A stretch of DNA of 64,000 nucleotides from Roseateles koreensis. GTDB taxonomy: Bacteria; Pseudomonadota; Gammaproteobacteria; Burkholderiales; Burkholderiaceae_C. The stretch spans positions 62,001-126,000 of the forward strand of contig NZ_JAQQXS010000009.1 of assembly GCF_028595305.1 (NCBI RefSeq), written 5' to 3'. Shown one piece after another: positions 11,421-63,118 of the stretch. A model generated the notes under the pieces. The model was not told the origin of the DNA, did not search any database, and saw nothing but the letters and a program-made list of their open reading frames with translations. The position numbers and the translations under genes are program-made. How positions within the stretch are numbered: the stretch's first letter is position 1; every line of letters starts with the position of its first letter.

Positions 11421-11451
11421 GCGGTTTCAGCGGCTTCTGCGGTTTCAGCGG
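11421..11451. repeat. 18-bp tandem duplication spanning the rapZ stop codon
   Basis: GCGGTTTCAGCGG occurs at 11421-11433 and 11439-11451 with an 18-bp period. On the minus strand it duplicates the end of rapZ, so two TGA codons lie in frame 18 bases apart. The array also abuts the mutY stop (11418-11420) on the other side. Confidence 0.85.
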
Positions 11452-12458
11452 GCGTCCAGTTCCCGGTGCCGCTTGAGCACTTGGCCGTGGTCGGCGAATT
11501 TTCGCGCCAGCGCTTCCACCAAATACACCGACCGGTGTTGGCCGCCCGTACAGCCAATCGCCACGGTCAGATAACTGCGTTGATCGGCGGCATAGCTGGG
11601 CAGCCAGGTGGCCAGAAAGCCGGAGATCTGCCCCATCATCAGCGCGACTTCAGGTTGCGCTTCCAGATAGGCGGCGACAGGGGCATCCCGGCCATTCAGA
11701 GGGCGCAGCTCGCGGTCGTAATACGGGTTGGGCAGCACGCGCACGTCAAAGACCAGGTCGGCATCGCTGGGTACGCCGTGCTTGAAGGCGAATGATTCAA
11801 ACACCAATGTGAGCGAGGTGCCGTCCACCACCACCAAATCACGAACCCAGGCGCGCAGTTGCGCCGGGCGCAGCTGGCTGGTGTCCAACACCGTTGACTC
11901 CACGCGCAGGGCGCTCAGCAGTTCACGTTCTAGATGGATGGCATCCAGCAGGGCGCGGTGTTGGTCGTCGCCATCACCGCTGCCAAGGCTCAGCATGGTG
12001 TTGTCATGGCTTGCTACGGCTTGGTTATCGGCAAGCATCACGCCGCCCAAGTCCTGCCGCAAGGGATGCGGCCGCCGGGTCTCGGAGAACCGGCGCATCA
12101 AGGCATCGGTACTGGCGTCCAGGAAGATGGAGCGAACTGCCACGCCTTCTGTGCGCAATTGTTTGATCAGCGGGATCAGCAGGGGCAGGGAGCCGGCGCT
12201 GCGCACATCGACGGCGATCGCCACATGGCGTTTACCGCGATGCTTTTCCAGCCGCAAAAAGGCCAGCAGCAGTTCTGCGGGCAGGTTGTCCACGCAGAAG
12301 AAGCCGGCATCTTCCAGCGCATGCATCACCACGGATTTGCCGCCGCCCGACATGCCGGTGACCAGCACCACATCGCTTTGATGCAGCAAGACCGGGGCGG
12401 GCGCTGGGTTTGTGGTGGGTGCGTCCGGCATGGAGGCGTCCTTGGCGTTGCCGCTCAT
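11445..12458 (-). CDS. rapZ: RNase adapter / nucleotide-binding protein RapZ
   Basis: A 337-residue RapZ (YhbJ/YvcJ) protein. In E. coli it binds GlmZ sRNA and brings it to RNase E, linking glucosamine-6-phosphate level to GlmS synthesis. Seen here: Walker A GMSGGGKS near residue 35, the family block [20 protein letters not shown], and the C-terminal [16 protein letters not shown]. The N-terminus carries an Ala/Pro-rich extension of about 20 residues. Its ATG overlaps the recN stop. No ptsN or rpoN lies alongside, unlike the enterobacterial arrangement. Confidence 0.94.
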
Positions 12459-14185
12459 GATTTGGCTTTCTTGGCTTTGACGGGGGCGCGGGGCGGTGGG
12501 TTGGCGTTGGTGCTGGCACCGCTGGCCGACAGGTCCAGCATCTCCTGGGCATGGGCCAGGCTGGTGCTTGAGAGCCGTTCGCCGCCCAGCATGCGGGCGA
12601 TTTCCGCAGTGCGGGTTTCACCGGTGACGGGGCGAACGTCGCTGCAGGTCTGGCCGTTTTGCAGGGCCTTGGCCACCACCAGGTGTTGATCGGCGCAGGC
12701 GGCGACTTGCGGGAGGTGGGTGACAGCCAGCACCTGGCGGTCGCGACCTAACTGCTTCATCAAGCGGCCTACTGTTTCGGCCACGGCCCCGCCCACGCCG
12801 GCATCAATTTCATCGAATATCAAGGTGCCCACGCCTTGGCCGGCGCCGGTGTTGTGCTGGCTGGCGGTGACCGCAATCGCCAGCGCAATGCGGGACAACT
12901 CGCCGCCAGACGCCACCTTGCCCAAAGGGCGGGGTGCGCTGCCGGCGTGGCCTGCCACCAAGAATTCGGCCGACTCCAGGCCAAAGCTCTGGGGTTGATC
13001 TTGGGGCTGCAGTTGAATGTCAAACACGCCGCCGGCCATGCCCAGTTGCTGCATGGCCTGGGTGACGGCGCTGGCCAATTGAGGGGCCGTGCGCCGGCGC
13101 GCTTCCGAAACTTTTCCTGCTTGTGCCAGATAGTTTTGGCGTGCTTGCGTCACGCTTTTTTCCAGCGCGTCGAGGTCGCTGGCGGCGTCCAGCGCTTGCA
13201 GCTCGGCGCGCCATTGGCTGTGCAAGGCGGGCAATTCCTGCGGCGGGCGGCGGTAGCGGCGCGCAAGGTTCAGCCAGGCCGACACGCGCTCATCCAACTC
13301 CGCCATGCGGGAGGGTTCCAGATCGGCGCCGTGGAGGTAGGTGCTGAGCGTATGGGCAGCGTCTTGCAACTGGGTTTGGGCACCGCGTAGGGCCTCAACG
13401 GCAGGCAACAGAGTGGCGTCGAAGTCCAGCACCTTTTCCAAGGGATCAAGCGCGGCGCTGAGCAGGCTGTCGGCACTGGGCTCGGACTCGCTCAAGTCAT
13501 TCAGCGCGGAGCGGCAGGCGTCCAGCAGCGATTGGGCGTGAGAGAGCTTTTGGTGCTCGGCGTTGAGCTCGCTCCATTCATCGGCACCGGGTGAGAGACG
13601 GTCGACTTCGCCGATCTGCCAAGCTAGGCGTTCGCGCTCACGCAAGCGCTCGCCTTGGGCGGTTTGGGCTTGGGCCAAGGCTTCAGCCGCTTGTTTGAGG
13701 GCGTTGAAGGCGGCGCTGAGTTCAGCCAGGTTCAGGCCCGCATAGTCGTCCAGCAAGGCCCGTACCGACGCCGGGCGGGTCAGGCCTTGCCATGCGTGCT
13801 GACCGTGAATGTCCAGCAAGCTGTCCGCCAGCTCACGCAACTGGCTCACGGTGGCGGGGCTGCCGTTGATCCAGGCGCGGCTCTTGCCTTGCGAGTCGAT
13901 GGTCCGGCGCAGCAGCAGGGTATCGGCCTCATGGTCAAAGCCGGCTTCGTCCAGCCACGGGTGCAGGTGGGCTGGGCGATCAAATTCAGCGCTGATGTCG
14001 GCGCGGCTTGCACCTTCGCGCACCACGCCGGCTTCGCCCCGGCTGCCCAAGGCCAGTTGCAGCGCGTCGATCAGAATGGATTTGCCGGCGCCGGTTTCAC
14101 CGGTCAGCACGGAAAACCCGCCCCCAAAATCCAGCTCCAACTCGGGGACGATGACAAAGTCCCTCAGGGCCAAGCGCCGCAACAT
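12455..14185 (-). CDS. recN: DNA repair protein RecN
   Basis: An SMC-like ATPase of double-strand-break repair; 576 residues. Walker A GETGAGKS at about 29-36 and Walker [13 protein letters not shown] with the following [16 protein letters not shown] flank a coiled-coil region rich in Ala, Glu, Gln and Leu (about residues 150-350). It follows nadK by two bases and overlaps rapZ by four, so the three genes form one operon. Confidence 0.96.
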
Positions 14186-14187
14186 GG

Positions 14188-15063
14188 TCAGCTCACTCCT
14201 TCATACCAGCGCAGTTTGCGGCGCAGTGTGGCGTAATAACTCCATCCCTTGGGATGCAAAAAACACACCTGGTGGGCCGAGCGCCGCACCGTGATGCGGT
14301 CACCGTGCAAGAGGCTGGCCAGGCTCTGCATATCAAAATTGACGCTGGCGTCGCGGCCCGCCACGATTTCCATGCGCACCTCGCCGGTATCTGGCAGCAC
14401 GATCGGCCGGTTCGACAAGGTGTGCGAGGCGATGGGCACCAGCAACCAGCCTGCAATCGAGGGGTGCAAGATGGGCCCGCCGGCCGACAGGGAATACGCC
14501 GTGGAGCCCGTGGGTGAGGCAACGATGATGCCGTCAGCCCGCATATTGGCGACGAAGTCGTCGCCCACATCCACCCGCAACTCCACCATGCTCGCGGTGG
14601 CGCCGCGGCTGACCACCACATCGTTGAGCGCCAGGCCTTCAAAGATGCTGCGCCCGTCGCGCCAAACCGCACCTTCAAGCATGGGGCGGTTCTCGGTCTC
14701 GAAATCGCCCGCCAGAATCGGTTTCAAAGCCTCCTGGTAGCGTTCAATGGAAATGTCCGTGATGAAGCCCAGGCGCCCCTGGTTGATGCCCACCAGCGGC
14801 AAGCCGTGGTGCGCCATTTCTCGTGCAAAGCCCAGCATCGTGCCGTCGCCGCCGACAACAATCGCCAAGTCGCATTGCTGGCCCAGTTCAAGTTTGGATT
14901 TGGCGTCGAAGGCTGTGATGCCGGTGTTCAAGGCCGTGTCATGTTCCAGCGAAACATCCAGGCCTTGGCGCAGCACGAAGTCGGCAATTTCTTCCAGAAT
15001 TGGACGAATGCCCCGGGCTTGATGCTTGCCCACGAGTGCCACATGTTGGAAGGGTTTGGCCAT
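14188..15063 (-). CDS. nadK: NAD kinase
   Basis: Phosphorylates NAD to NADP. The 291 residues contain the catalytic GGDGTML motif near residue 70 and [10 protein letters not shown]. The second conserved region [20 protein letters not shown] is also present. First gene of the nadK-recN-rapZ operon; the 102 bp upstream are shared with the divergent hrcA. Confidence 0.96.
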
Positions 15064-15165
15064 GGGGCGGAATTACACCACAGCGCCCTGCCGTTTCATG
15101 GGACATTGCCGGGTTTCGCATGGCCCTCCCGCAGAGGGGGCGCCCACTGTCCTTACAATGGCTGA

Positions 15166-16188
15166 ATGCTCGACGAGCGATCCAAATCCCTGCTGAAAAC
15201 TCTGGTTGAACGTTACATCGCTGACGGGCAACCCGTGGGTTCGCGCACGCTCTCCAAAGCCTCGGGCTTGGAGCTGAGCCCGGCCACCATCCGCAACGTG
15301 ATGGCCGATCTTGAAGAACTGGGCCTGATTGCCAGCCCCCACACCAGCGCCGGGCGCATCCCCACCTCGCGCGGTTACCGGCTGTTTGTCGACACCATGT
15401 TGACCACGCAACCCTCCTTGTTGGGTGCTGACGCCCGCCCGATCGAGGCCACGCACCTTCAGCCCGATCAGCCCCAGCGCGTTATCGCCAGTGCGGCGGC
15501 CTTGCTCTCGAATCTTTCCAATTTTGTCGGCGTGGTCACTGCACCGCGCAAGCCCAGCGTCTTTCATCACATCGAGTTTTTGCGCCTGGGTGAACGCCGG
15601 GTCCTGGTGATCATGGTCTCGCCCGACGGCGACGTGCAAAACCGCGTCATCTTCACCGCCCAAGACCTGAACCAGTCGGAACTGGCGGAGGCCAGCAACC
15701 GGTTGAACGCCGGCTATGCCGGCCTCAGCCTCGAGTCGGTGCGGGAGCGTCTCAAGTCAGAAGTCGACGCCCTGCGCAGCGAAATAGCTGCCCTGATGAG
15801 CGCCGCCGTGCAAGCCGGCACCGATGCCATGGCCGAAGAACAAGAGCGCGTGGTCATCTCCGGCGAACGCAATTTGCTGACCGTGCAAGACTTCGGCAAC
15901 GACATGGGCAGCCTGCGACGTCTGTTCGACATGTTCGAACAAAAAACACAGCTGATGCGCCTGCTCGACGTCTCCAGCCGTGCCGAAGGCGTGCGCATCT
16001 ACATTGGCGGCGAAAGCCAGGTCGTCCCGTTCGAAGAGCTCTCTATCGTGTCATCGCCCTACGAAGTCGACGGCCAGATCGTCGGCACCCTGGGCGTCAT
16101 CGGCCCCACCCGCATGGCCTACGACCGTATGATCCAGATCGTCGACATCACTTCCCGCATGATCAGCCAGGCCTTGTCGCAAAAGTGA
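15166..16188 (+). CDS. hrcA: Heat-inducible transcription repressor HrcA
   Basis: Represses groESL and dnaK operons by binding CIRCE elements. The 340 residues include an N-terminal winged helix ([40 protein letters not shown]), a central GAF-like domain, and the C-terminal [20 protein letters not shown] typical of HrcA. No CIRCE inverted repeat is visible in front of the gene, so it is not obviously self-repressed. It is divergent from nadK. Confidence 0.96.
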
Positions 16189-16282
16189 GTGAGGCGCGGC
16201 AAGCATCAGCGGCCTCGCCATCAAGCTTCACCCTATACAATCCGCGCCTTCCGGTGCAACGCCGGTCTGTACTTCCCCCCGG

Positions 16283-16359
16283 GGGCCGTTAGCTCAGTTG
16301 GTTAGAGCAGAGGACTCATAATCCTTTGGTCGCAGGTTCAAGTCCTGCACGGCCTACCA
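16283..16359 (+). tRNA. tRNA-Met (anticodon CAT, elongator-like)
   Basis: A 77-nt cloverleaf. The acceptor GGGCCGT pairs with ACGGCCT (first pair G·T), the D arm is AGCTCAGTTGGTTAGAGC, the anticodon loop CTCATAA carries CAT, the T arm is AGGTTCAAGTCCT, and CCA is encoded. A tRNA-Ile2 with lysidine-modified CAT cannot be fully excluded. The DNA downstream is accessory in character. Confidence 0.93.
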
Positions 16360-16433
16360 CTTGTTCCCACACTCGGCGCTGCAAGAGTCGGTCATCAGAG
16401 GTTCTATCTTTGCATTGGCCTAGAGCAAGCCGG

Positions 16434-16736: not shown

Positions 16737-16741
16737 CCGGA

Positions 16742-17209: not shown

Positions 17210-17397
17210 AGATGGGCTGATTGCGGGCTTGCTTGCCGCTGAGAACCGTCCGGGCCCCTCGTCACTACAAGGATGGGAGGGGGGGAACTGCCCTGCAGAC
17301 TTCGCGGCGTGCGGAAATGGAGGTACGCGAGGGGCGGTGAATCGAGGGCAACTCGTACCGCCCCAACGCTTGCATCAAAAACGCGGGATTTTGCCGC

Positions 17398-22580: not shown

Positions 22581-22607
22581 CGCACCGCCATCCTCAAGGA
22601 GAAATTC

Positions 22608-24271: not shown

Positions 24272-26665
24272 ATGACTCACCGCTATCTCGACCGATTCGA
24301 AGCCCTCTGCTTTGGCAGGCGCAAGTTGCTGATGGGGCTGCTGCTTGCGCTGACCGTGGCCATGGGCTTCTTCGGCAAGCAGCTGCGCATGGAGGCGGGC
24401 TTCGAAAAGCAGATGCCGACCCACCACCCCTATGTGGATACCTTCCACGCCTATCGTGACGACGTGATGGGAGCCAACCGGCTCAATATCGTGGTGCGCG
24501 CGAAGAAGGGGCAGATCTGGACTGCTGCCGGCCTCAACCGGCTCTACCAGGTGAGTCAAGCGGTGACTTTTTTGCCCAATGTGGAACGACTGGGTGTGCA
24601 GTCGCTGTGGACGCCCAATAGCTTTGTCAACGAGATCACGGAGGAGGGCTTCCGTGCCGACCCCTTGATCGATGGCAGCGTCACGCCGGATGCGCTGGAC
24701 GAGGCGGCGATTCTTAAGATCAAGGCCGCTGCGATCCAGGGGGGATTCATCGGCACCTTGGTCTCGCGCGGCCAAGACAGTGCCATGGTCACGGCTGAAC
24801 TGATCGAGACCGACAAGGACGGCCACAAGCTCGACTATGTCGACTACAACCGCATCCTCGAAGAGCAAATTCGCAAGCGCTTCGAGGACGCGGACTTCTC
24901 GATCGAGATCATCGGCTTTGCCAAGCAAATCGGCGAGATCGCCGACGCTGCAAGCTCGGTGCTGGTGTACTTCGCCCTGGCCATCTTCCTGACCGCCGTG
25001 GCCGTCTATTGGTACTGCCGCTCGCTGCTGTTCACGCTGCTGCCGATTCTGTGTTCCTTCACCTCACTGATCTGGCAGTTTGGCGCGCTGCACTTGCTGG
25101 GCTTTGGGCTTGATCCCTTGGCGGTGCTGGTGCCGTTCCTGGTCTTCGCCATCGGCGTGTCGCATGGCGTGCAGCAGATCAACTTCATCGTCCGTGAAGT
25201 CTCTCTGGGGCGCAGCTGCGAGCAGGCTTGCCGCGCCAGTTTGTCGGGGCTTTTGATTCCCGGCACCTTGGCCTTGGCCACGGCCTTTGTGTCTTTCATC
25301 ACCTTGCTGCTGATTCCGATTCCTATGGTGCGGGAGTTGGCGATTGCGGCCTCGCTGGGGGTGGGCTTCAAGATCGTCACCAATCTGGTCATGCTGCCGG
25401 TGCTGGCGTCATTTTTTCGGATGAGCCCCGACTATGCCAACTCCGCCATGAACTTGCGCGAGGCCCGCGCCGTCTGGCTGCGCAAGCTGGCGCGCATCGC
25501 GCAGCCGCGCAATGCCGCCATCTGCCTGACTGTTGTGGGCGCGGTGTTGGGTCTGGCGGTCTGGCAAAGCCAAGGCAGGGTGGTGGGCACCGTGCTGCCC
25601 GGCGCGCCGGAGCTGCGCCCGGATGCACGCTTCAATCTCGACGCGGTGTCGATTGCTAGCAATTACGACACCGGCCTGGACTGGCTGACCATCATCTTCG
25701 AGGCCAAGCCAGCTGCTGGCGCCGCTGCGCCTGAGCCCGGCATCGGCTTTTGCGGCCAGGTCAACATCGGCCTGTACCAGGACAGCTTTGTGTGGGCGCT
25801 GCAGCCGGTGGAGGGGGTGCTCTCGATTGCGGCCTTCTCCGAGCAAATGAAGCAGTACAACCTGGGCTATAACGAGGGCAATCCGAAGATGGAGTCGGTG
25901 CCGCTGGATGCTGCCAACTTCGCTGCCTTGGCCACCGAGATCTCGCGTGGGCGCGGCACCATGCGCAAGGACTGCAGCATGACGGCGGTGCACCTGTACC
26001 TGACCGATCACAAGGCGGTCACCATCCACCGGGTCATTGACGCCGTCAAGGCCTTCGCCGCCAGCAATACCGAGCCGGGTGTGCAAATCCGCTTGGCCTC
26101 GGGCAATGCTGGCGTGCTGGCGGCCGTGAATGAGACGCTGGAGCAGAGCGAATTGCCCATGCTGCTCTATGTCTACGCTGCCATCGTCGCCTTGGTGCTG
26201 CTGACCTACCGTGATTTCCGCGCCGTGCTGGCTTGCTGCTTGCCGCTGACCATTGGCACCTTCATCGGCTACTGGTTCATGAAGGAGCTGCAGATCGGTT
26301 TGACGGTGGCCACCTTGCCCGTGATGGTGCTGGCCGTAGGTATAGGCGTTGACTACGCCTTCTACATCTACAACCGCTTGCAGCTGCATCTGTCCCGCGG
26401 CCTGGAGATCAGTGCGGCGCTGGAGCAAGCCATTCTGGAGGTGGGCACCGCCACCATCTTCACCGCCGTCACGCTGGCGGTGGGTGTGGCCACCTGGTCC
26501 TTCTCCGAGCTGAAGTTTCAAGCCGATATGGGCAAGCTGCTGGCCTTTATGTTCATTGTCAATATGGTCATGGCAATGACCGCCTTGCCCGCTTTTGCGG
26601 TCTGGCTGGAGCGTTTGTTTCCGCGTACCCAAGCCGTCTGTGTCCCTGGGCTGATGCAGCACTGA
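24272..26665 (+). CDS. MMPL/RND-family transporter
   Basis: 797 residues. One membrane helix near residue 20 (LLMGLLLALTVAMGFFG) is followed by a large periplasmic loop, then a bundle of about five helices starting near residue 228 (SSVLVYFALAIFLTAVAVYW). The pattern repeats in the second half (MLLYVYAAIVALVLLTY, then GIGVDYAFYIYNRL with an intramembrane Asp). This duplicated topology is that of MMPL-type RND proteins, which move lipids or other hydrophobic compounds using the proton gradient. An 11-bp tandem duplication covers the stop codon. Confidence 0.87.
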   Translation: MTHRYLDRFEALCFGRRKLLMGLLLALTVAMGFFGKQLRMEAGFEKQMPTHHPYVDTFHAYRDDVMGANRLNIVVRAKKGQIWTAAGLNRLYQVSQAVTFLPNVERLGVQSLWTPNSFVNEITEEGFRADPLIDGSVTPDALDEAAILKIKAAAIQGGFIGTLVSRGQDSAMVTAELIETDKDGHKLDYVDYNRILEEQIRKRFEDADFSIEIIGFAKQIGEIADAASSVLVYFALAIFLTAVAVYWYCRSLLFTLLPILCSFTSLIWQFGALHLLGFGLDPLAVLVPFLVFAIGVSHGVQQINFIVREVSLGRSCEQACRASLSGLLIPGTLALATAFVSFITLLLIPIPMVRELAIAASLGVGFKIVTNLVMLPVLASFFRMSPDYANSAMNLREARAVWLRKLARIAQPRNAAICLTVVGAVLGLAVWQSQGRVVGTVLPGAPELRPDARFNLDAVSIASNYDTGLDWLTIIFEAKPAAGAAAPEPGIGFCGQVNIGLYQDSFVWALQPVEGVLSIAAFSEQMKQYNLGYNEGNPKMESVPLDAANFAALATEISRGRGTMRKDCSMTAVHLYLTDHKAVTIHRVIDAVKAFAASNTEPGVQIRLASGNAGVLAAVNETLEQSELPMLLYVYAAIVALVLLTYRDFRAVLACCLPLTIGTFIGYWFMKELQIGLTVATLPVMVLAVGIGVDYAFYIYNRLQLHLSRGLEISAALEQAILEVGTATIFTAVTLAVGVATWSFSELKFQADMGKLLAFMFIVNMVMAMTALPAFAVWLERLFPRTQAVCVPGLMQH

Positions 26666-26672
26666 TGCAGCG
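26651..26672 (+). repeat. 11-bp tandem duplication covering the MMPL stop codon
   Basis: CTGATGCAGCA (26651-26661) is followed directly by CTGATGCAGCG (26662-26672). The second copy contains the TGA stop at 26663-26665. Confidence 0.8.
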
Positions 26673-47781: not shown

Positions 47782-47801
47782 GCGTTAGGGCGTTAGGGCG
47801 T
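47782..47801 (-). repeat. 8-bp tandem duplication containing the stop codon of the solute-binding protein
   Basis: On the minus strand ACGC-CCTAACGC-CCTAACGC: the 8-mer is duplicated so that TAA occurs twice, eight bases apart in different frames. The first TAA (47793-47795) ends the gene. Confidence 0.75.
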
Positions 47802-52477: not shown

Positions 52478-53407
52478 ATGGGATTTTTGATTGAAACCAT
52501 CTTCGGCGGCCTGATGACGGGCATGCTGTATTCGCTCATTGCGCTGGGCTTTGTGCTGATCTACAAGGCCAGCGGCGTGTTCAATTTTGCGCAGGGCGCG
52601 ATGGTGCTGTTCGCGGCATTGGCCATGGCGCGCTTCACCGAATGGATTCCGCAATGGACGGGCCTTACGCAGCCGCTGCTGGTCAACGGGCTCGGATTTC
52701 TGGCGGCTTGCGCGGTGATGGTGCTGGTCGCCTGGCTGATCGAGCGACTGGTGCTCAGCAAGTTGGTCAATCAGGAAGGTATCACCCTGCTGATGGCCAC
52801 CATCGGCGTGACCTATCTGATGGAAGGACTGGGGCAGACCCTGTTCGGCTCGGACATCTACAAGATCGATGTAGGCATGCCCAAGGACCCGATCTTTTTG
52901 TTCGAAAAAACCTTTGAAGGCGGCGTGCTGGTCAACAAAGAAGACTTGTACGCCGCCCTGATCGCTGCGGCCATGGTGGCGCTGCTGGCGCTGTTTTTTC
53001 AGAAGACGGCAACGGGCCGCGCCTTGCGGGCGGTGGCGGATGATCACCAGGCGGCGCAATCCATCGGCATCCCGCTCTCACGCATCTGGGTCATCGTGTG
53101 GGCGGTGGCGGGTTTCGTGGCTCTGGTGGCCGGTGTCATCTGGGGCAGCAAACTGGGCGTGCAGTTCTCCCTCTCCCTGGTCGCGCTGAAGGCCTTGCCG
53201 GTGGTGATTCTGGGCGGCCTCACCTCGGTGCCCGGCGCCATCATTGGCGGGCTCGTGATTGGTGTGGGCGAGAAAGTCTCTGAGGTCTATCTCGGGCCCC
53301 TGATGGGGGGCGGCATCGAGATCTGGTTCGCCTATGTGCTGGCGCTGTTGTTCTTGCTGGTCCGCCCGCAAGGTTTGTTTGGCGAAAAAATAATTGATCG
53401 CGTATGA
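52478..53407 (+). CDS. Liv-type ABC transporter permease (LivH-like)
   Basis: 309 residues with about eight membrane helices, beginning ETIFGGLMTGMLYSLIALGF. The permease loop ALRAVADDHQAAQSIGIPLS contacts the ATPase, and VVILGGLTSVPGAIIGGLVI is conserved in the family. Its last codons are the left arm of a long hairpin, and the region after the stop is tandemly repeated. Confidence 0.92.
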   Translation: MGFLIETIFGGLMTGMLYSLIALGFVLIYKASGVFNFAQGAMVLFAALAMARFTEWIPQWTGLTQPLLVNGLGFLAACAVMVLVAWLIERLVLSKLVNQEGITLLMATIGVTYLMEGLGQTLFGSDIYKIDVGMPKDPIFLFEKTFEGGVLVNKEDLYAALIAAAMVALLALFFQKTATGRALRAVADDHQAAQSIGIPLSRIWVIVWAVAGFVALVAGVIWGSKLGVQFSLSLVALKALPVVILGGLTSVPGAIIGGLVIGVGEKVSEVYLGPLMGGGIEIWFAYVLALLFLLVRPQGLFGEKIIDRV

Positions 53408-53425
53408 CGCGAGCAATTATTTTTC
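53384..53425 (+). other. Long hairpin embracing the livH stop codon
   Basis: GAAAAAATAATTG-AT-CGCGT pairs with ACGCG-AG-CAATTATTTTTC around an ATG triloop. This gives about 17 pairs, one 2x2 internal mismatch and one extra A. The stop TGA (53405-53407) lies at the loop. The right arm is therefore the inverted complement of the last five to six codons of livH. It could act as an intra-operon attenuator or mRNA 3'-end protector. Confidence 0.7.
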
Positions 53426-53622
53426 AGAGAAGGCTAACTTGGACTCGTCCAAGTTAAGCGCCGAACGGCGCGGCCGGAACTAAAAAGGTCATCCATTGCG
53501 TATGACGCGAGCAATTATTTTTCAGAGAAGGCTAACTTGGACTCGTCCAAGTTAAGCGCCGAACGGCGCGGCCGGAACTAAAAAAGGTCATCCATTGCGT
53601 ATGACGCGAGCAATTATTTTTT
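53400..53622 (+). repeat. 98-99 bp tandem direct repeat (2.3 copies) after livH
   Basis: Copy 1 at 53400-53497, copy 2 at 53498-53596 (one extra A), partial copy 3 at 53597-53622. The copies are otherwise nearly identical. Each full unit contains the right arm of the livH hairpin, a second hairpin AACTTGGAC-TC-GTCCAAGTT and a third GCGCCG-AA-CGGCGC. The first unit starts within the final codons of livH. No open frame continues through it. It separates livH from livM. Confidence 0.93.
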
Positions 53623-53673: not shown

Positions 53674-54738
53674 ATGTTCTATCGTGAGAACGGCCAGTTC
53701 AAAACTTCTTACCGGGCAGACAGCCAGATCTTCCCGATCCGGCAGGACCGCGTCGCTGTTGCCGCGCTGTTGTTGCTGGCTTTCGTGGGGCTGCCCTTAT
53801 TGGCCACTGACTATCTGTTCAGCGCCATCCTGATTCCGTTTTTGATCCTCTCGCTGGCGGCGCTGGGCTTGAATGTGCTGGTCGGCTATTGCGGGCAGAT
53901 CTCCCTGGGCACGGGGGCCTTCATGGCGGTGGGGGCGTATGCGGCATACAACTTCCAGGTGCGCATCGAGGGCATGCCCTTGCTGGTGTCACTGCTGATG
54001 GGGGGGCTGTGCGCCACGGCCGTGGGTGTGCTGTTCGGCATCCCCTCGCTGCGCATCAAGGGGCTGTATCTGGCGGTGGCCACCTTGGCGGCGCAGTTCT
54101 TCTGCGACTGGGCTTTTTTGCGTATCAAATGGTTCACCAACAACTCGTCCTCGGGCAATGTGTCGGTGTCTGAATTGAGTGTGTTGGGGCTCGCCATCGA
54201 CGCACCGGTGCAGAAGTACCTGTTCTGTCTGAGCCTTGTCACCGTGTTTGCCCTGCTGACCAAAAATCTGGTGCGCGGTGCCATCGGCCGTGAATGGATG
54301 GCCATGCGCGATATGGACGTGGCGGCTGCCGTGATCGGCATTCGTCCGGTCTACGCCAAGCTCAGCGCGTTTGCGGTCAGCAGCTTCATCGTGGGCGTGG
54401 CCGGTGCGCTGTGGGGCTTTGTGCATCTGGGCTCTTGGGAGCCTGCGGCCTTTTCCATCGACCGCTCTTTCCAGCTTTTGTTCATGGTCATCATTGGCGG
54501 CCTGGGGTCGGTGATGGGCAGTTTTTTTGGCGCGGCCTTCATCATTTTTCTACCCATCGCCTTGAACCAGTTGCCGCGTTTGCTGGGCCTGCAGATTGGG
54601 ACTGAAACCGCCTCGCACCTTGAGCTAATGGTGTTCGGCGCCCTGATTATTTTCTTTCTGATCAAGGAGCCGCATGGCCTGGCACGGCTGTGGTCCACCG
54701 CCAAGGAGAAGTTGCGGCTTTGGCCATTTCCGCATTGA
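53674..54738 (+). CDS. Liv-type ABC transporter permease (LivM-like)
   Basis: 354 residues from ATG 53674, preceded by GAGG. About ten membrane helices; the LivM-type block LNVLVGYCGQISLGTGAFMA lies near residue 70. The ATPase-contact loop reads WMAMRDMDVAAAVIGIRPVY, and GGLGSVMGSFFGAAFIIFLP is conserved. The gene ends CCG CAT TGA, and this 9-mer is repeated in tandem after the stop. Confidence 0.92.
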   Translation: MFYRENGQFKTSYRADSQIFPIRQDRVAVAALLLLAFVGLPLLATDYLFSAILIPFLILSLAALGLNVLVGYCGQISLGTGAFMAVGAYAAYNFQVRIEGMPLLVSLLMGGLCATAVGVLFGIPSLRIKGLYLAVATLAAQFFCDWAFLRIKWFTNNSSSGNVSVSELSVLGLAIDAPVQKYLFCLSLVTVFALLTKNLVRGAIGREWMAMRDMDVAAAVIGIRPVYAKLSAFAVSSFIVGVAGALWGFVHLGSWEPAAFSIDRSFQLLFMVIIGGLGSVMGSFFGAAFIIFLPIALNQLPRLLGLQIGTETASHLELMVFGALIIFFLIKEPHGLARLWSTAKEKLRLWPFPH

Positions 54739-54756
54739 CCGCATTGACCCCACTGA
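54730..54756 (+). repeat. 9-bp tandem repeat giving three in-frame stop codons at the end of livM
   Basis: CCGCATTGA (54730-54738, the final codons of livM) is repeated exactly at 54739-54747 and imperfectly as CCCCACTGA at 54748-54756. A decayed fourth unit CCGACTCAT follows. Three TGA codons are in frame. Confidence 0.9.
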
Positions 54757-54846
54757 CCGACTCATCTTGATTCACTGTTCTTGCCCGACCCGAGGTTCCA
54801 TCTAAAACAGCGTGCCCAAGCGTGCGCATCACCGGAGACAACGTTC

Positions 54847-56175
54847 ATGAAAAACCTGACAACCTTCGTGCTGACGTCCACCTTGGCTGTGCTGAGCCTG
54901 GTGGGCAGCGCCGCCGTGGCGGGGGCCGAGACCAAGGAGCAGTTCTTCCCCTTGCTGGTTTACCGTACCGGGCCTTATGCGCCCAATGGCACGCCCTGGG
55001 CCAATGGCAAGCAGGACTACATCAAGATGGTCAACGCGCGCGACGGCGGCATCAATGGCGTGAAGATCACGTTTGAAGAATGCGAAACAGGCTACGCCAC
55101 CGACAAGGGTGTGGAGTGCTATGAGCGCTTGAAAGGCAAGGGCGCCAGCCTGTTCGATCCGCAGGCCACGGGTATCACCTTTGCGCTGACCGACAAGGTG
55201 ATCAAGGACAAGATACCGCTGGTCACGCTGGGCTACGGCCTGGCGGCATCGCAGGACGGCGGTGTCTTCAAATGGAACTTTCCCTTGATGGGCAGCTACT
55301 GGACGGCGGCGGACATGCTGATCCAGCACCTGGCCAAGAAGGAAGGCGGCTTCGATAAATTGAAGGGCAAGAAGATTGCGCTGGTCTATCACGATTCGCC
55401 CTTCGGCAAAGAGCCCATGCCGCTGTTGGACGAGCGCCAGAAGATGCATGGTTTTGAGCTGATTAAGATCCCGGTGACGGCGCCCGGCGTCGAGCAAAAG
55501 TCCGCCTGGCTGCAAGTGCGCCAACAGCGGCCCGACTATGTGCTGCTGTGGGGCTGGGGCGTGATGAACTCCACGGCGCTGAAAGAGGCGCAAGCCACGG
55601 GCTACCCGCGCGAGAAGATGTACGGCGTCTGGTGGGCGGGCGCTGAACCTGATGTCAAGGACGTGGGTGAGGGCGCCAAGGGCTATAACGCCCTGGCGCT
55701 GAACACCTCGGGTCAGGCGCCTAAGGTGATTCAAGACATCCTCAAGTACGTGCATGCCAAGGGCGAGGGTACGGGCCCCAAGGATGAAGTGGGGTCGGTG
55801 CTCTACACGCGGGGTTTGATCATCCAGATGCTGGGCGTGGAGGCCGTGCGGCGTGCGCAAGAGCGCTTCGGCAAGGGCAAGGTGATGAGCGCCGAACAAG
55901 TGCGCTGGGGCCTGGAGAACCTGGCGCTTGACCAGAAGCGGCTGGACGCGCTGGGCTTCTCGGGCGTGCTGCGCCCCATCAGTACCTCTTGCCAGGACCA
56001 TATGGGCTCGACCTGGGCGCGCGTGCACACCTGGGACGGCGCGAAATGGAACTTCAGCTCCGATTGGCTGCAAGCCGACGAGCAAATCCTCAAGCCCATG
56101 GTGAAGGTGGCGGCCGAAAAATACGCGGCGGAGAAAAAGCTCGAGCGTCGCACGCCCGCTGACTGCCAATCCTGA
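54847..56175 (+). CDS. Liv-type ABC transporter substrate-binding protein (LivK-like)
   Basis: 442 residues from ATG 54847. Signal peptide about residues 1-29 (ending VAGAETK). Type I periplasmic binding fold: FFPLLVYRTGPYAPNGTPWA, GGINGVKITFEECETGYATD, KIALVYHDSPFGKEPMPLL. Longer than LivK for branched-chain amino acids and typical of receptors for aromatic or other organic acids. Its neighbours (two CoA ligases) support an acid ligand. Confidence 0.9.
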   Translation: MKNLTTFVLTSTLAVLSLVGSAAVAGAETKEQFFPLLVYRTGPYAPNGTPWANGKQDYIKMVNARDGGINGVKITFEECETGYATDKGVECYERLKGKGASLFDPQATGITFALTDKVIKDKIPLVTLGYGLAASQDGGVFKWNFPLMGSYWTAADMLIQHLAKKEGGFDKLKGKKIALVYHDSPFGKEPMPLLDERQKMHGFELIKIPVTAPGVEQKSAWLQVRQQRPDYVLLWGWGVMNSTALKEAQATGYPREKMYGVWWAGAEPDVKDVGEGAKGYNALALNTSGQAPKVIQDILKYVHAKGEGTGPKDEVGSVLYTRGLIIQMLGVEAVRRAQERFGKGKVMSAEQVRWGLENLALDQKRLDALGFSGVLRPISTSCQDHMGSTWARVHTWDGAKWNFSSDWLQADEQILKPMVKVAAEKYAAEKKLERRTPADCQS

Positions 56176-56180
56176 CTGCC
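56159..56180 (+). repeat. 9-bp direct repeat around the stop codon of the LivK-like gene
   Basis: CTGACTGCC occurs at 56159-56167 and 56172-56180 (13-bp period). The second copy contains the TGA stop at 56173-56175. Confidence 0.55.
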
Positions 56181-57039: not shown

Positions 57040-57047
57040 CGGTCAGG
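57035..57047 (+). other. Small hairpin covering the livF stop codon
   Basis: CCTGA-CGG-TCAGG, with the TGA stop in the left arm. Short; significance uncertain. Confidence 0.3.
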
Positions 57048-57085
57048 GTCCACGGATTCAACGCCTCAAGGGACAGGATCAGACG

Positions 57086-58363
57086 ATGAGCCATAGCCAT
57101 GACGCCGCATTTTTTGATGCGATGGAAACGCAAGATCCGGTACAGCGCGAGCAAATGTTGATGCAGGCCTTACCGCAACAGGTCGCGCATGCGCAAGCCG
57201 CCACCTCCGCATTCACCGAAATTCTGCACGGCGTAGACGCCCTCGCCGTCAACAGCCGGGAGGCCCTGGCCCGCTTGCCTGTCACCCGCAAGAGCGAGTT
57301 GCTGGCGCGCCAGCAGGCGGGGCGGGCGAGCGACCCATTTGGTGGCTTTTCAGCCATCGGCTGGGCTGGGCTGGCGCGTGCGCAGGGCGCGCTGCGGGTG
57401 TTCCAGTCGCCCGGCACGATTTATGAACCACAAGGGCACGGCGACGACTTCTGGCGTGTGGCGCGTGCCTTGTACGCGGCGGGCATGCGCGCGGGTGATT
57501 TGCTGCACAACAGTTTCAGCTACCACCTGACACCGGCGGGCGCCATGATGGAGGCTGGCGCGCACCGGATGGGTTGCACCGTGTTTCCAGGCGGTGTGGG
57601 CCACACCGAGTTGCAGTTGCAGGCCATGGCGGAGCTGCGGCCACAGGGTTATGTGGGCACGCCCAGTTTTTTGAAGATCCTGCTCGACAAGGCTGCTGAA
57701 ACAGGCGTGGCAATCAGCTCGGTGCGCAAGGCGCTGTTCAGCGGCGAGGTTTTTCCTGCGGCGCTGCGTGATTGGATGGGCGAGCGGGGTGTGGCGGGCT
57801 ATCAGTGCTATGCCACCGCCGACCTCGGGTTGATTGCCTATGAAACGACCGCCCGCGAGGGCTTGGTGCTGGCCGAAGGGGTGATTGTTGAAATCGTCCG
57901 CCCCGGTAGCGGCGAGCCCCTGCCTGCGGGCGAGGTAGGGGAGCTGGTGGTGACGACCTTGACGCCCCACTATCCGCTGATCCGCTTCGGCACCGGGGAT
58001 CTCTCGGCCATCTTGCCCGGCACTTGTCCCACCGGCCGCAGCAATGCGCGTATCAAGGGTTGGATGGGCCGGGCGGACCAATCGGCCAAGGTGCGCGGCA
58101 TGTTTGTCCATGCCTCGCAGATGACCGAGATGCTACGTCGATTCCCCGAGTTAGGCCGCCTGCGTCTGGTGGTGGAAGGCGAGATGGCGCAAGACCGTAT
58201 GTGCTTGAAGGTTGAGGTGAGTGGCGCGCCCGAGGGATTGAGCGAGCGCTTGGCCCAGGCGCTCAGAGACATCACCAAACTGAGGGGCGAGATTGAACTG
58301 TTGCCGCCAGGCAGCCTGCCCAACGACGGCATCGTGCTTGAAGACGCGCGGCGCCATACCTGA
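57086..58363 (+). CDS. Phenylacetate-CoA ligase (PaaK)-like AMP-forming ligase
   Basis: 425 residues of the PaaK group: the start region ARLPVTRKSELLARQQ, YATADLGLIAYE at the acyl-adenylate site, and LTPHYPLIRFGTGDLSAIL. The C-terminal domain has GRADQSAKVRGMFVHASQM. It probably activates an aryl or arylalkyl carboxylic acid brought in by the Liv-type importer, as the last gene of the operon. Confidence 0.87.
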   Translation: MSHSHDAAFFDAMETQDPVQREQMLMQALPQQVAHAQAATSAFTEILHGVDALAVNSREALARLPVTRKSELLARQQAGRASDPFGGFSAIGWAGLARAQGALRVFQSPGTIYEPQGHGDDFWRVARALYAAGMRAGDLLHNSFSYHLTPAGAMMEAGAHRMGCTVFPGGVGHTELQLQAMAELRPQGYVGTPSFLKILLDKAAETGVAISSVRKALFSGEVFPAALRDWMGERGVAGYQCYATADLGLIAYETTAREGLVLAEGVIVEIVRPGSGEPLPAGEVGELVVTTLTPHYPLIRFGTGDLSAILPGTCPTGRSNARIKGWMGRADQSAKVRGMFVHASQMTEMLRRFPELGRLRLVVEGEMAQDRMCLKVEVSGAPEGLSERLAQALRDITKLRGEIELLPPGSLPNDGIVLEDARRHT

Positions 58364-58524
58364 ATGCCTGGCGGCGAATTCTGTCGCCGTCACCAAGCTC
58401 TTACGTAGTTTCCGTTGTCCGCCGCCCCTGCCTGGGTTCTAGCATTCAGGGGTGCGTCGCACTGCATTTCGGTGCGCGAGGGTGAGGGGCTCGAAATGAG
58501 CAAACGCGGGGCAAGGGCAGATAC

Positions 58525-59553
58525 ATGATGGGCCGCAGCGCTTGGAACTTCAAAAGACGCCGCTTGGCATGGGCATGGGCGGGGAAGGGCTTGGCCATAA
58601 CTTTGGCTTGGAGCGGTGTGCTGGCATCGGTTTGGGCCGTCGAGCCTGAGCGATCGTTGACTTTGATCGTGCCATTTCCGGCCGGCGGCCCCAGTGATCA
58701 ATTGGCCCGCAATTTGGCGCGCGCGCTGGGCAAGGCGCTGGCAACCGGGGTTCAGATCGAAAATATCGGCGGTGGCGGCGGCACGGTGGGGGTGCAAAAG
58801 GCCGCGCGTGCACAGCCTGATGGGCGCACCTTGCTGCTCCACCACATTGGCATGGCGACCGCGCCAGCGCTCTATCCGGCCCTGCCTTACAAGCCGCTGG
58901 ACGATTTTGAATACTTGGGCCTGCTGCAGGAGGTGCCCATGACCTTGGTGGGCCGACCAGGCTTGCCGGCCAAAGACTATGCACAGCTGAGCGCCTGGAT
59001 GGTGGCCAATCGAGGCAAGGTCAATTGGGCCAACGCGGGCCAGGGTTCGGCCTCCCATCTGTGCGGCCTGATGTTTCGCAACGTGACCCGGCTGGATCTG
59101 CGCAGCGTGCGCTATCGCGGTGCGTCCCCGGCCATGGCCGATCTGCTGGCGGGGCAGGTCGATTTGATGTGCGACATGAGCACCGACACTTTGGCGCAGA
59201 TCCGCAAGGGGCGCATTCGGGCCTACGCCGTGACCAGCAGCCATCGCCTGACGCAGGTGCCGGAATTGGCGGACGTGCCGACGCTGGATGAACTCGGGCT
59301 GAAAGGCTTTTCGGTGACCGTGTGGTACGGCCTTTACGCACCAGCCGGTACGCCCAAACCGGCGCTGGAGCGCTTGGCCAGTGCCTTGCAGCGTGTCCGC
59401 GCAGACCCTGACTTCATCGAGGGTGCCTCGGTCGCGGGGGCCAGCGTGGTGGTGGATGTGCGCGGTCAGGGCCTTGAGCACAAGCGTTTCGTCAAGGCTG
59501 AAATCATCAAATGGGGCGCAGCCCTGCGTGCCGCCGGTGACGAGGCCAATTAG
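58525..59553 (+). CDS. Bug-family tripartite tricarboxylate transporter receptor
   Basis: 342 residues. A signal peptide ends near VWAVEPE (residue about 39). Bug-fold motifs: LIVPFPAGGPSDQLARNLAR, GGGGTVGVQKAARAQPDG and YAPAGTPKPALERLASALQ. These receptors are greatly expanded in Burkholderiales and bind dicarboxylates, aromatic acids or amides. No TctA/TctB membrane genes adjoin it, as is usual. Confidence 0.9.
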   Translation: MMGRSAWNFKRRRLAWAWAGKGLAITLAWSGVLASVWAVEPERSLTLIVPFPAGGPSDQLARNLARALGKALATGVQIENIGGGGGTVGVQKAARAQPDGRTLLLHHIGMATAPALYPALPYKPLDDFEYLGLLQEVPMTLVGRPGLPAKDYAQLSAWMVANRGKVNWANAGQGSASHLCGLMFRNVTRLDLRSVRYRGASPAMADLLAGQVDLMCDMSTDTLAQIRKGRIRAYAVTSSHRLTQVPELADVPTLDELGLKGFSVTVWYGLYAPAGTPKPALERLASALQRVRADPDFIEGASVAGASVVVDVRGQGLEHKRFVKAEIIKWGAALRAAGDEAN

Positions 59554-59596
59554 GAATTCGTTCCACCCATTGGCGGGGCCGGGTGAGGCCTCAAAT

Positions 59597-60037
59597 TCAC
59601 AGGATGCGCAGCGGAATGGTCACGGGCCCATCGTTGAGCAGGCTGACTTGCATGTCCGCGCCGAACTCGCCGCACTGCACCACGGTGTGCTGGCTTTTGG
59701 CGAAGTTCAGGCAATGCTCGTAGAGCAGTCGGCCTTGCTCAGCCCCTGCTGCGCCGGTGAAGCTGGGCCGATTGCCGCTCGTGCAATCGGCTGCCAGGGT
59801 GAATTGCGAGACGATCAAAAGGCCACCGCCCACGTCTTGCACGCTCAAGTTCATCTTGCCGGCGGCATCGCTGAAGATGCGCAGCTTCAACGCCTTCTGA
59901 ATCAGCTTTTCGGCCTGCGCGGGGGTGTCGCCAGGCTCAGCGCAGACCAGCATCAGCAGGCCCTGGTCAATGGCGCCCGTGACGCGGCCGGCGACTTCGA
60001 CTTTGGCATGGCGGACTCTTTGCAATACGGCAATCAC
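59597..60037 (-). CDS. dtd: D-aminoacyl-tRNA deacylase
   Basis: Hydrolyses D-aminoacyl-tRNAs, protecting translation from D-amino acids. 146 residues from GTG 60037, with AAAGGAG upstream; the first residues [17 protein letters not shown] match the family start, so longer frames were rejected. Signature motifs SQFTLAAD and NDGPVTIPL (Gly-cisPro). Convergent with the Bug gene. Confidence 0.95.
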
Positions 60038-60165
60038 GTGAGGCAACTCCTTTGCCCGCATTGTCGGTGAGCGGCAGGCGCGTCCTACAATCTTGCGCAA
60101 CAACGCCGCCCTCTTTGAATTTATCCCTAACTTTTAAAGCCCTCAGCTTTTCAGAGCACGCCACC

Positions 60166-61086
60166 ATGAAAATCGAGTCCGCCGCGCCCGCTACCACCAC
60201 CGAGGTCTCCCACATCGCGCCGCGCGAAAAGGCGGAGATTCTTTCTCAGGCCTTGCCCTATATTCGCAAGTTTCATGGCAAGACCATCGTCATCAAATAC
60301 GGTGGCAACGCCATGACCGATCCGGCGCTGCAGCAAGACTTTGCGGAAGATGTGGTGCTGCTTAAGCTCGTCGGCCTGAACCCGGTTGTGGTGCATGGCG
60401 GTGGCCCGCAGATTGAAGGCGCTTTGAGCCGCCTGGGCAAGAAGGGGCAGTTCATCCAGGGCATGCGCGTCACCGACGAAGAAACCATGGAAGTGGTGGA
60501 GTGGGTGCTGGCCGGCCAGGTGCAGCAAGACATCGTTGGCCTGATCAATGTGGCCGGCGGCAAGGCGGTGGGCCTGACTGGGCGCGACGGCGGCATGATC
60601 CGCGCCAAGAAGTTGAAGATGGTCGACAAAGACGACCCCGCCAAAGAACACGATGTGGGCCAGGTGGGCGACATCGTCAGCATCGACCCGAGCGTGGTCA
60701 AGGCCTTGCAAGACGACCAGTTCATCCCCGTCATCAGCCCTATCGGTTTTGGCGAACAAAACGAGAGCTACAACATCAACGCCGACGTGGTGGCCGGAAA
60801 ATTGGCCGAGGTACTGAAGGCTGAAAAGCTGGTGTTGTTGACCAATACGCCCGGCGTGCTCGACAAGGCGGGCAATTTGCTGACCGACCTCAGCGCTCGC
60901 GAGATCGATGCCTTGTTTGCTGACGGCACCTTGTCCGGCGGCATGCTGCCCAAGATTGCCTCCGCCCTGGAGGCGGCCCGCAGCGGCGTCAATGCCGTGC
61001 ACATCATCGACGGACGCGTCCCCCACGCCATGCTCCTTGAAATCCTCAGCGATCAGGCTTACGGAACGATGATTCGATCCCACTAA
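60166..61086 (+). CDS. argB: Acetylglutamate kinase
   Basis: Second step of arginine synthesis. 306 residues from ATG 60166. Phosphate-binding Gly motifs [10 protein letters not shown] and [10 protein letters not shown], plus [20 protein letters not shown]. The N-terminal helix before the kinase core (about 30 residues) is the type found in arginine-inhibited hexameric enzymes, so feedback control is likely. The stop codon lies in the loop of a long hairpin, and the region after it is duplicated. Confidence 0.97.
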
Positions 61087-61105
61087 GGGATCGGATCGTC
61101 GTTCC
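61063..61105 (+). other. 19-bp hairpin with the argB stop codon in its loop
   Basis: GGAACGATGATTCGATCCC (last codons of argB) pairs with GGGATCGGATCGTCGTTCC after the loop ACTAA. The two imperfect positions would be G·U pairs in RNA, so all 19 positions can pair. The loop contains the TAA stop (61084-61086). Confidence 0.85.
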
Positions 61106-61212
61106 GCGTCCGAGCGGAGCGAGGACTTGCGATGATTTGATTTCAGCGTGCCAGGTCACGAGGGATCGGATCGTCGTTCCGCGTCCGAGCGGAGCGAGGA
61201 CTTGCGATGATT
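61086..61212 (+). repeat. 75-bp tandem repeat (1.7 copies) starting at the argB stop codon
   Basis: A 52-bp block at 61086-61137 recurs identically at 61161-61212, giving a 75-bp period. It contains the right arm of the argB hairpin and GTCCGAGCGGAGCGAGGAC. It starts with the last base of the argB stop codon. Confidence 0.93.
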
Positions 61213-61571
61213 GGGCGCCCCCTGCGCCAATGCAGAGGCCGACTTTGGCGAAATTGCCACGGTTCTGAGTTTTCAGGCGGCAACACTTGTACCGCGTGAG
61301 TGCGACAGGGCGTCGCAAGTGGTATTCAACAAATCGACGCTATTCGTGAATTTGTCATGAGTTGATGGGGCATCTCAAGGGGGTTGTTCGTTTTCGGCGC
61401 AGCAACCCCATGATCGTAGGGTGAGTTTTGCGGGAAGCACGCGGTAAGGTGTACCGCAGAGCCTTCTCACTTGTCGCTTCGCGCTAGGCTGCCTGAAGGA
61501 GTAGGAAAACAGGGAATCGGCCCTTTGTTTTTTTGGCAGTCTGGCAGGCTTTCGACGCCTCAGTATTTGCC
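61213..61571. other. Intergenic stretch before the response regulator gene
   Basis: About 360 bp with no recognisable gene. It should carry the promoter of the response regulator. Confidence 0.4.
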
Positions 61572-62264
61572 ATGCCTACTTTTTCAGTGTTGATTGTCGA
61601 AGACCAGGCTCGGTTTCGCGATGCATTTGTCTTGTCCCTGTCGAGCGTCAGGGACATCCGTCTGGTCGGTGTTGCGGCTGACTTGATGCAGGGCACCCGC
61701 ATGTTTGATCACTACCGGCCCGATGTGTTGCTGGTCGATCTGGATCTACCGGGTGGTAGTGGCATCGACCTGATTCGGCATGCAGCGCAGGCCAAGCCGG
61801 ACTGCGATGTGATGGTGATCTCTGTGTTCGGCGACGAGCAACATGTCTTGTCCAGCGTGGAGGCAGGCGCCACGGGCTATTTGCTCAAGGACAGTCTGGC
61901 GCTGGATCTGCCCGACCAATTGCGCAGCTTGCGTGCGGGTGGCAGCCCCATCAGCCCCATCATCGCTCGCCGTTTGCTGCAGCGTCTCTCGCCAATCAGT
62001 GGCCCTCCCGGGAGCAGCTTTCTCGCCAAGGAGGCTCGTTTGCGCAGCCTGGTTGAAGAAGACGCGATTGCGCTCTCCGAGCAAGAGTCGCGCGTGCTGC
62101 ACCTGGCCGCAAAGGGCTTCACTTTTTACGAAATTGCGCAATTCATGGAGGTGTCCAGCCATACGGTGACCACCTACGTGAAGCGGGTTTATCGCAAGCT
62201 GCATGTACGCTCGAAGGTGGAGGCAATTTACGAGGCGAGGCGCTTGGGTTGGCTGCGTGATTGA
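61572..62264 (+). CDS. NarL/LuxR-type response regulator
   Basis: 230 residues from ATG 61572. Receiver domain about 1-120 (VLIVEDQARFRDAF; phospho-acceptor Asp in VLLVDLDLPGGSGID; Lys in GYLLKDS). C-terminal LuxR helix-turn-helix (LSEQESRVLHLAAKGFTFYE, then VTTYVKRVYRKLHVRSK). No histidine kinase gene adjoins it in this window, so its partner is elsewhere. Function unknown. Confidence 0.9.
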   Translation: MPTFSVLIVEDQARFRDAFVLSLSSVRDIRLVGVAADLMQGTRMFDHYRPDVLLVDLDLPGGSGIDLIRHAAQAKPDCDVMVISVFGDEQHVLSSVEAGATGYLLKDSLALDLPDQLRSLRAGGSPISPIIARRLLQRLSPISGPPGSSFLAKEARLRSLVEEDAIALSEQESRVLHLAAKGFTFYEIAQFMEVSSHTVTTYVKRVYRKLHVRSKVEAIYEARRLGWLRD

Positions 62265-62353
62265 GCAAGCTGCGGTGTGTCAGACGGATGGCATGACGAG
62301 CCATCACCGGGCTGTGACAGAATCGCCGGACCCCAGTTCAACCACTTCAGCCG

Positions 62354-63094
62354 ATGCCTGCATCTCTGCCCGAATTGATCGTCACCGCGTCGACCGTGCA
62401 GCCCGAGGCAGCGCGAGCGCTGGATGTTGCAAGCGCCGCCGACAGCAGGGTTGCGGAATCGGCCACCTCCGCACCCGCAACGGCAGCGGCAGCGGCAACC
62501 GTCCCAGCCGCACGCAAGCGACCCCGACCTGGTGAGCGGCGTGTTCAAATTTTGCAAGCGCTGGCGGGCATGTTGGAGCAACCGGGGGCGGAGCGGGTCA
62601 CCACCGCGGCGCTGGCGGCCAAGCTGGCGGTGAGCGAGGCTGCGCTGTATCGGCATTTCGCGAGCAAGGCGCAGATGTTCGAGGGGCTGATTGAGTTCAT
62701 TGAAAGCAGTATCTTCACGCTGCTGAATCAGATCGTCGAGCGCGAAGGTGCAGGGCAGGCTCAAGCGCAAAAAATCGTGGCGGTGTTGATGCAGTTTGGC
62801 GAACGCAATCCCGGCATGACCCGCGTGATGGTGGGGGACGCGTTGGTGTACGAGAACGAGCGGTTGGTGGCACGCATGAACCAGTTTTTTGACCGCATCG
62901 AGTCCACCTTGCGGCAAGTGTTGCGCAACGCCGCAGAGGCTCAGGGCTCGAGCACGCCCACGGTCGAGGCCAATGCGCAGGCGTCGGTGCTGTTGAGCTT
63001 CATGATCGGGCGCTTGCAGCGTTACGCCCGCTCAGGTTTCAAGCGCATGCCGACCGAGCAACTGGAGTTTTCGCTCAAGCTGCTGGTCGCTTGA
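62354..63094 (+). CDS. slmA: Nucleoid occlusion factor SlmA (TetR-like)
   Basis: 246 residues. The helix-turn-helix ERVTTAALAAKLAVSEAALY and RHFASKAQMFEGLIEFIE match E. coli SlmA closely. SlmA blocks FtsZ assembly over unsegregated DNA. A poorly conserved, Ala-rich N-terminal extension of about 55 residues precedes the domain. It is often near argB in betaproteobacteria. A 12-bp duplication follows its stop codon. Confidence 0.9.
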   Translation: MPASLPELIVTASTVQPEAARALDVASAADSRVAESATSAPATAAAAATVPAARKRPRPGERRVQILQALAGMLEQPGAERVTTAALAAKLAVSEAALYRHFASKAQMFEGLIEFIESSIFTLLNQIVEREGAGQAQAQKIVAVLMQFGERNPGMTRVMVGDALVYENERLVARMNQFFDRIESTLRQVLRNAAEAQGSSTPTVEANAQASVLLSFMIGRLQRYARSGFKRMPTEQLEFSLKLLVA

Positions 63095-63118
63095 TGACGC
63101 GGAGTTTGACGCGGAGTA
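63095..63118 (+). repeat. 12-bp tandem duplication after the slmA stop codon, with further in-frame TGAs
   Basis: TGACGCGGAGTT (63095-63106) then TGACGCGGAGTA (63107-63118), directly after the TGA stop at 63092-63094. Read in the slmA frame this gives three TGAs. Confidence 0.75.

Follow-up and report, generated by a model that had tools for sequence, protein, structure and literature searches.

Tandem duplications and mirrored gene tails at stop codons in a 64-kb stretch of Roseateles koreensis

Why do unrelated genes in one stretch of bacterial DNA end in direct repeats that contain or directly follow their stop codons? The stretch that raises the question, called here the window, comprises the 64,000 nt at positions 62,001 to 126,000 of contig NZ_JAQQXS010000009.1 from Roseateles koreensis; a preliminary description of it had named eight such gene ends, those of rapZ, an MMPL transporter, a solute-binding protein, livH, livM, a LivK-like gene, argB and slmA. 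A repeat scan of the window found direct repeats at all eight stop codons; the sizes given for them fared less well, several of the quoted values being periods. Nor do the eight form one phenomenon: livH and argB, which carry the two long repeats, end in hairpins that enclose the stop codon in the loop and have the coding tail of the gene as one arm and its mirror image as the other. We think it fairly probable that two processes overlap in this DNA, short slippage duplications that are tolerated, and template switches that would have produced the mirrored tails at livH and argB. The interpretation first given to the pattern is partly supported, and what is gained is a separation of an ordinary effect (duplications tolerated 3' of stops) from a rarer one (mirrored tails around the stop). 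The features of the two long cases are the following.

52478..53407, + strand: livH-like permease gene (Pfam BPD_transp_2; NCBIfam LivH/UrtB below cut-off), stop TGA at 53405-53407
53386..53424, + strand: livH stop-codon hairpin, with 5' arm 53386-53403 (coding tail), loop 53404-53406 (stop region) and 3' arm 53407-53424
53400..53621, + strand: livH tandem array, copies from 53400, 53498 and 53597 (the last partial), periods 98 and 99
60166..61086, + strand: argB-like amino-acid kinase gene (start approximate; Pfam AA_kinase), stop TAA at 61084-61086
61062..61106, + strand: argB stop-codon hairpin, with arms 61062-61081 and 61087-61106 and loop 61082-61086 containing the stop
61086..61212, + strand: exact 52-nt repeat at argB in direct orientation, first copy 61086-61137, second copy 61161-61212, period 75
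61108..61126, + strand: argB spacer hairpin with facing GA steps and a GNA loop; second copy at 61183-61201

The exact run is 87 nt at livH (period 98, with a third, partial copy at 99) and 52 nt at argB; the name argB is that of the preliminary description and is backed here by the Pfam match only. When the 649 gene ends of a first sample of the same genome were ranked by their best stop-centred stem, argB came first and livH third. Stop codons do not in general sit in hairpin loops: a stem score of at least 30 was reached at 4 of the 649 stops, whereas coding offsets gave 0-2 such stems and positions 30-60 nt downstream gave 9-13. General copying of gene tails downstream was likewise rejected, inverted copies exceeding every control only at livH, argB and one further end (C34:68544) and direct copies at none. 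Among 712 ends of relatives, three direct and five inverted tail copies scored at least 14, against none and one in the controls.

The mirrored arms recur in the genus. With a score threshold of 9.5 or more, an arm was found at 12 of 14 argB loci, of which 11 are among the 13 of the genus and one is that of G046, from another genus, and at 9 of the 16 livH loci of the genus. These counts cover the 13 of 18 genus genomes with an argB end, and 16 genomes for livH, two of the 18 having been dropped for want of livM; a second, distant liv locus of G012 (L059) was excluded from the livH and livM counts. Outside the genus, where each search was confined to its 30 best loci (argB being present in 114 genomes and livH in 100; one locus, L165, ends at the stop), G046 alone passed the threshold among the 28 readable argB ends of these best loci, and none of the 27 readable livH ends did. 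The argB end of G033, from another genus, folds well by a different route and stays below the threshold; at this end (L139) a direct copy of the tail and stop, seen by eye, lies about 60 nt downstream, here too next to a hairpin. Folding z-scores ranged from -5.0 to -10.6 for the twelve argB loci with an arm (energies from -25.6 to -41.3 kcal/mol) and from -2.7 to -8.7 for the nine livH loci. The two arms vary together: at argB, 76 of 77 variable cells were paired (71 as Watson-Crick pairs), against a swapped-arm mean of 0.766, and none of 2000 swaps reached the observed value; at livH, 60 of 70 variable cells were paired in ten loci, one of which (G009) is probably a chance match, the swapped-arm mean being 0.736 and the value being reached in 3 of 2000 swaps.

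Several species carry tandem arrays at their argB or livH ends. At argB they were found, with a score of at least 35, in 7 of 13 species (G000, the genome under study, G004, G009, G012, G014, G015 and G017), and at livH, with a score of at least 26, in 4 of 16 (G000, G015, G016 and G017); over 2025 gene ends, only 12 reached an array score of 25, and four of these were argB or livH. The array of G016, in the gap between livH and livM (L048), occupies this livH end too but is of another kind, built around a CGAGCGCAGCGAG core. The livH end of G012 reads like that of G017 joined across two 9-nt CGCGTATGA copies (tail plus stop), at -6 and +136 of G017, and the difference of G012 from G015 and G017 looks like a precise loss between tail copies.

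These layouts would follow if a template switch during replication placed a mirrored copy (T') behind the coding tail and its stop (T), followed by a spacer (S) and a further whole or partial T. T and T' would form the hairpin with the stop in its loop, and an inverted triplication can survive at such a place because its first copy retains the stop. The direct T copies would then let replication slip across the hairpin, so that units are added, as in the 98-bp and 75-bp arrays, or removed. We infer both the template-switch origin of the two tails and slippage as the step that resizes the arrays. The complete cycle, in which a switch mirrors the coding tail and stop and the direct copies then expand the hairpin into arrays or delete it cleanly, is a tentative proposal and on balance a doubtful one; it includes the idea that the stop-in-loop hairpin is a 3' structure that tracks synonymous changes in the gene. 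If true, coding sequence would have a way of giving rise to 3' hairpins.

Several points weigh against this account of livH and argB. The arm-swap values ignore relatedness, and the position given to each mirrored arm was that of its best match to the gene's own tail, a choice that favours pairing. At argB the additional T is partial only. Some arrays surely go back to a common ancestor, and independent array events are fewer than the counts, because the arrays of G004 and G014, and those of G012, G015 and G017, may be inherited; the case of G012 could also be a gain in G015 and G017. The mechanism would moreover be rare, because only livH, argB and C34:68544 exceed the controls in 649 ends.

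The arm covariation may come from copying between arms or from selection on RNA. The latter is a serious contender, plausible without being probable: selection would keep the argB and livH hairpins as RNA structures (terminator, pause or protection of the 3' end), and the arrays would be extra useful copies. Strong folding and the covariation itself fit this, as do the livH copies, which score terminator-like, with three candidate sites of stem-loop plus T-tract on the + strand and one on the - strand. At argB, however, there is no such T-tract site, and terminator-like sites in the stretch number 14 against 10.3 expected. The livH hairpin is also patchy among near relatives on the livM tree, being present in G006, G001 and G013 but missing in their sisters G003, G009 and G008, and present in G015 and G017 but missing in G012. 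Selection of this kind is compatible with a template-switch origin. Should the covariation instead reflect copying between arms, covariation would not in every case prove a functional RNA, a point of consequence for the discovery of RNA families.

The six short repeats of the eight are the following.

11421..11451, - strand: rapZ stop repeat, common to the stop of a convergent mutY-like gene (which ends at 11420); 13 nt exact, period 18
26651..26671, + strand: MMPL gene stop repeat; run 10, period 11
47782..47801, - strand: solute-binding protein (SBP_bac_3) stop repeat; run 12, period 8
54730..54749, + strand: livM-like gene stop repeat; run 11, period 9; the Tandem Repeats Finder array extends to 54759
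56159..56180, + strand: LivK-like gene stop repeat, 9 nt, period 13
63095..63117, + strand: repeat directly 3' of the slmA stop; run 11, period 12

The preliminary description had proposed comparison with sister species to date the duplications. The livM, LivK-like and slmA repeats are absent from the corresponding ends in five sisters (G001 has its own, different repeat at the livM end); for the rapZ, MMPL and solute-binding repeats, dating was attempted and gave no match at E 1e-30 in the syntenic stretches used. At livM ends (window 54730-54760, and G001, G009 and G016), CAYTGA words recur after the stop with a spacing of about 9-12 nt, partly inexactly.

Are such repeats denser at gene ends than elsewhere? 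The source assembly is a draft of 4.37 Mb in 35 contigs, of which 1.6 Mb were sampled, 1.54 Mb of it outside the window. Genes were called with a self-written codon-model finder, in whose calls stops are more reliable than starts. An event was an exact direct repeat of at least 9 nt with a period of at most 1.5 times the run, and it was said to touch a stop or start when within 5 nt of it; the rule was picked to fit the eight repeats, as one of eight settings tried, and was fixed before a second, held-out 0.8 Mb came into use. Among the 649 genes of the first sample, the stop was touched in 18 and the start in 3. For the later counts genes were retrained and events merged. The first 736 kb outside the window then gave 8 of 601 stops against 6 of 601 starts (p = 0.79, no difference, a result that speaks against an excess at stops), and the held-out 800 kb gave 13 of 665 against 2 of 665 (p = 0.007). 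Outside the window, 25 events fell in the 26,190 bp lying 0-30 nt after stops and 15 in the 64,685 bp of 3' intergenic DNA lying deeper (p = 1e-5); in the held-out part alone, the figures were 13 in 13,820 bp and 10 in 34,593 bp (p = 0.005). The density in the 0-30 nt zone outside the window was 0.95 events per kb, as against 0.051 in first-order Markov simulations of the same zone (0.03-0.065 per kb across all zones). Repeats are thus denser at gene ends than in deeper intergenic DNA, in coding DNA or in simulated sequence; the result that had been announced as fatal to this claim, a lack of excess at stops over intergenic positions, was not observed, and coincidence, one of the causes first considered, is rejected for the genome-wide enrichment. 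Outside the window, tandem copies of a near-identical motif around AACTGGGG were seen at two unrelated stops, at about 74403-74440 of G000:C34 and near the stop of 184773-185556 of G000:C30, which suggests a small dispersed gene-end element.

To explain the short repeats, it is necessary to consider how DNA changes after a stop. Between G004 and its sister G014, gap openings per aligned kb numbered 23-25 at 0-30 nt, 18.7 at 30-60 nt, 4.5 beyond and 0.6 in coding DNA, and identity was 0.77-0.83, 0.79, 0.86 and 0.935, respectively. Gaps are most frequent and identity is lowest in the zone after the stop, and relaxed constraint is therefore the best explanation of the short repeats. Repeats with periods of 8-18 would be ordinary slippage duplications that accumulate in the first tens of bases 3' of stops, where a duplication containing or following the stop spares the protein; DNA there would be little constrained, and deeper intergenic DNA would carry signals.

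This explanation by tolerance meets contrary evidence. In 0.8 Mb of relatives, 8 stops and 4 starts were touched, out of 714 each; the contrast between 0-30 nt and deeper DNA was not significant there (7 versus 10 events, p = 0.23), and that between 0-60 nt and beyond (14 versus 3, p = 0.003) depends on a cut set post hoc. Deeper intergenic DNA of G004 and G014 was aligned over 45-75%, which favours its conserved part, and the pair G003/G006, aligned over 37% only and noisy, shows a similar tendency at 0-30 nt. Near stops, gaps rise about five-fold and mismatches two-fold or less, and a mutational bias is possible there because gaps rise more than mismatches. Finally, the window's own ratio of 10 touched stops in 50 is not accounted for by a genome-wide gradient of tolerance.

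The window itself is an outlier. Elsewhere in the sampled genome 21 of 1266 stops were touched (p = 6e-8, a value that overstates the surprise because the window was picked for showing the pattern), and among the 25 windows of at most 64 kb in the sample, no other had more than 3 touched stops. Two of the ten stops in the window, those of the convergent mutY-like and rapZ genes, have one repeat in common, and a third is touched by a coding repeat before an L25-like stop, so that the eight remain. This coding repeat, Lys/Gly-rich and at 3952-3975 of the window, lies immediately 5' of the stop of a ribosomal L25/TL5-like gene. Repeats in coding DNA are no denser in the window (0.23 per kb versus 0.21 and 0.17), and a conserved hot region was rejected, the syntenic stretches of five sisters having 3 touched stops in 369.

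A mutational hotspot at gene ends, where bare RNA behind the terminating ribosome, RNA-DNA hybrids or stalled forks would promote slippage, is an unlikely cause of the short repeats, even if it would fit the peak of events within 30 nt of stops in this genome, the rise in gaps over that in mismatches and the excess that tolerance leaves in the window. Identity too is lowest near stops, as tolerance predicts, and the part given to R-loops is conjectural. Of the local mutational mechanism first suggested, what survives is that it is the best reading for livH and argB; for the short repeats it is inseparable from tolerance.

Selection for back-up stop codons, also suggested at the outset, is very unlikely. 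It would fit the stop events of the 1.6 Mb sample, in which 14 of 23 periods were multiples of 3 (p = 0.006, from one test among several) and the stop itself was duplicated in 10 of 31 events; but the window periods 98, 11, 8 and 13 are out of frame, and the accessible text of PMC6764699 reports no selection for additional stops in eubacteria, where they are too few and not too many. The excess of periods in multiples of 3 holds even when the junction lies 3' of the stop.

Equally hard to credit is that the livH array is an assembly artefact, as might be feared from a draft in 35 contigs and from copies that differ by a single base in an A run, and that are either young or an assembly product because they differ so little: short-read assemblers tend to collapse repeats, and arrays with other units stand at the same end in G015, G016 and G017.

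How do these gene ends compare with known systems? In the literature searched, which left most subscription journals outside its reach, no report of a mirrored or duplicated gene-end pattern was found. The fail-safe additional stops of PMC6764699, as far as its accessible text goes, are similar in lying 3' of the primary stop, but the extra stops here are by-products of copied tails and often out of frame. REP/BIME sequences (PMC12306157, in its accessible part) share palindromic units, tandem arrangement and a 3' intergenic position; REPs, however, are dispersed families, whereas here each unit comes from its own gene and stays there. The livH stretch occurs once in its genome, apart from its own mirrored part, and in the 11 genus genomes, out of 18, that matched the argB unit, it was found at the argB locus alone; G009 has one weak 20-nt match on the other strand, adjoining the argB locus. 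The argB spacer string was found in 6 of 399 family genomes, five times at argB ends and once (G143) in an unrelated stretch. A dispersed hairpin family with facing GA steps and a GNA loop was rejected, a census of 1.6 Mb (0.8 Mb of this genome and 0.8 Mb of relatives) giving seven intergenic matches, of which six belong to argB ends and the seventh to another place in G014. Rfam gave no family at cut-off in the ten loci scanned; two weak MIR4380 matches below cut-off, on both strands of one place in L071, were taken as chance.

The hairpin clusters of intrinsic termination (PMC8355165, as far as available) likewise have several hairpins just 3' of the stop, but here the stop is inside the first hairpin and argB lacks a T-tract. 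Template switching between imperfect inverted repeats (PMC8604942, accessible text) also makes arms more alike with several changes together; here one arm is coding and the other non-coding, and direct copies and arrays are added. The closest likeness is to the small inverted triplications that the accessible text of PMC13334657 describes in yeast and cancer genomes (median 148/160/148 bp), with precise elimination, on plasmids in E. coli, when the polymerase slips across the hairpin: both have direct, inverted and direct copies (DUP/IN/DUP) with a spacer, and both can form hairpins. That order is found at livH of G015 and G017 as T, T', spacer, T, and argB would not show it by itself, its further direct copy being partial; spacers of tens of bases are visible, and the place of the breakpoint junctions, expected to be reverse-complementary, depends on the ancestral state. 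The arms here differ from those triplications in being about 12-20 bp, placed at stop codons, common to related species and set in tandem arrays, and they offer a natural case in which the birth, growth and loss of small inverted triplications may be followed in bacteria.

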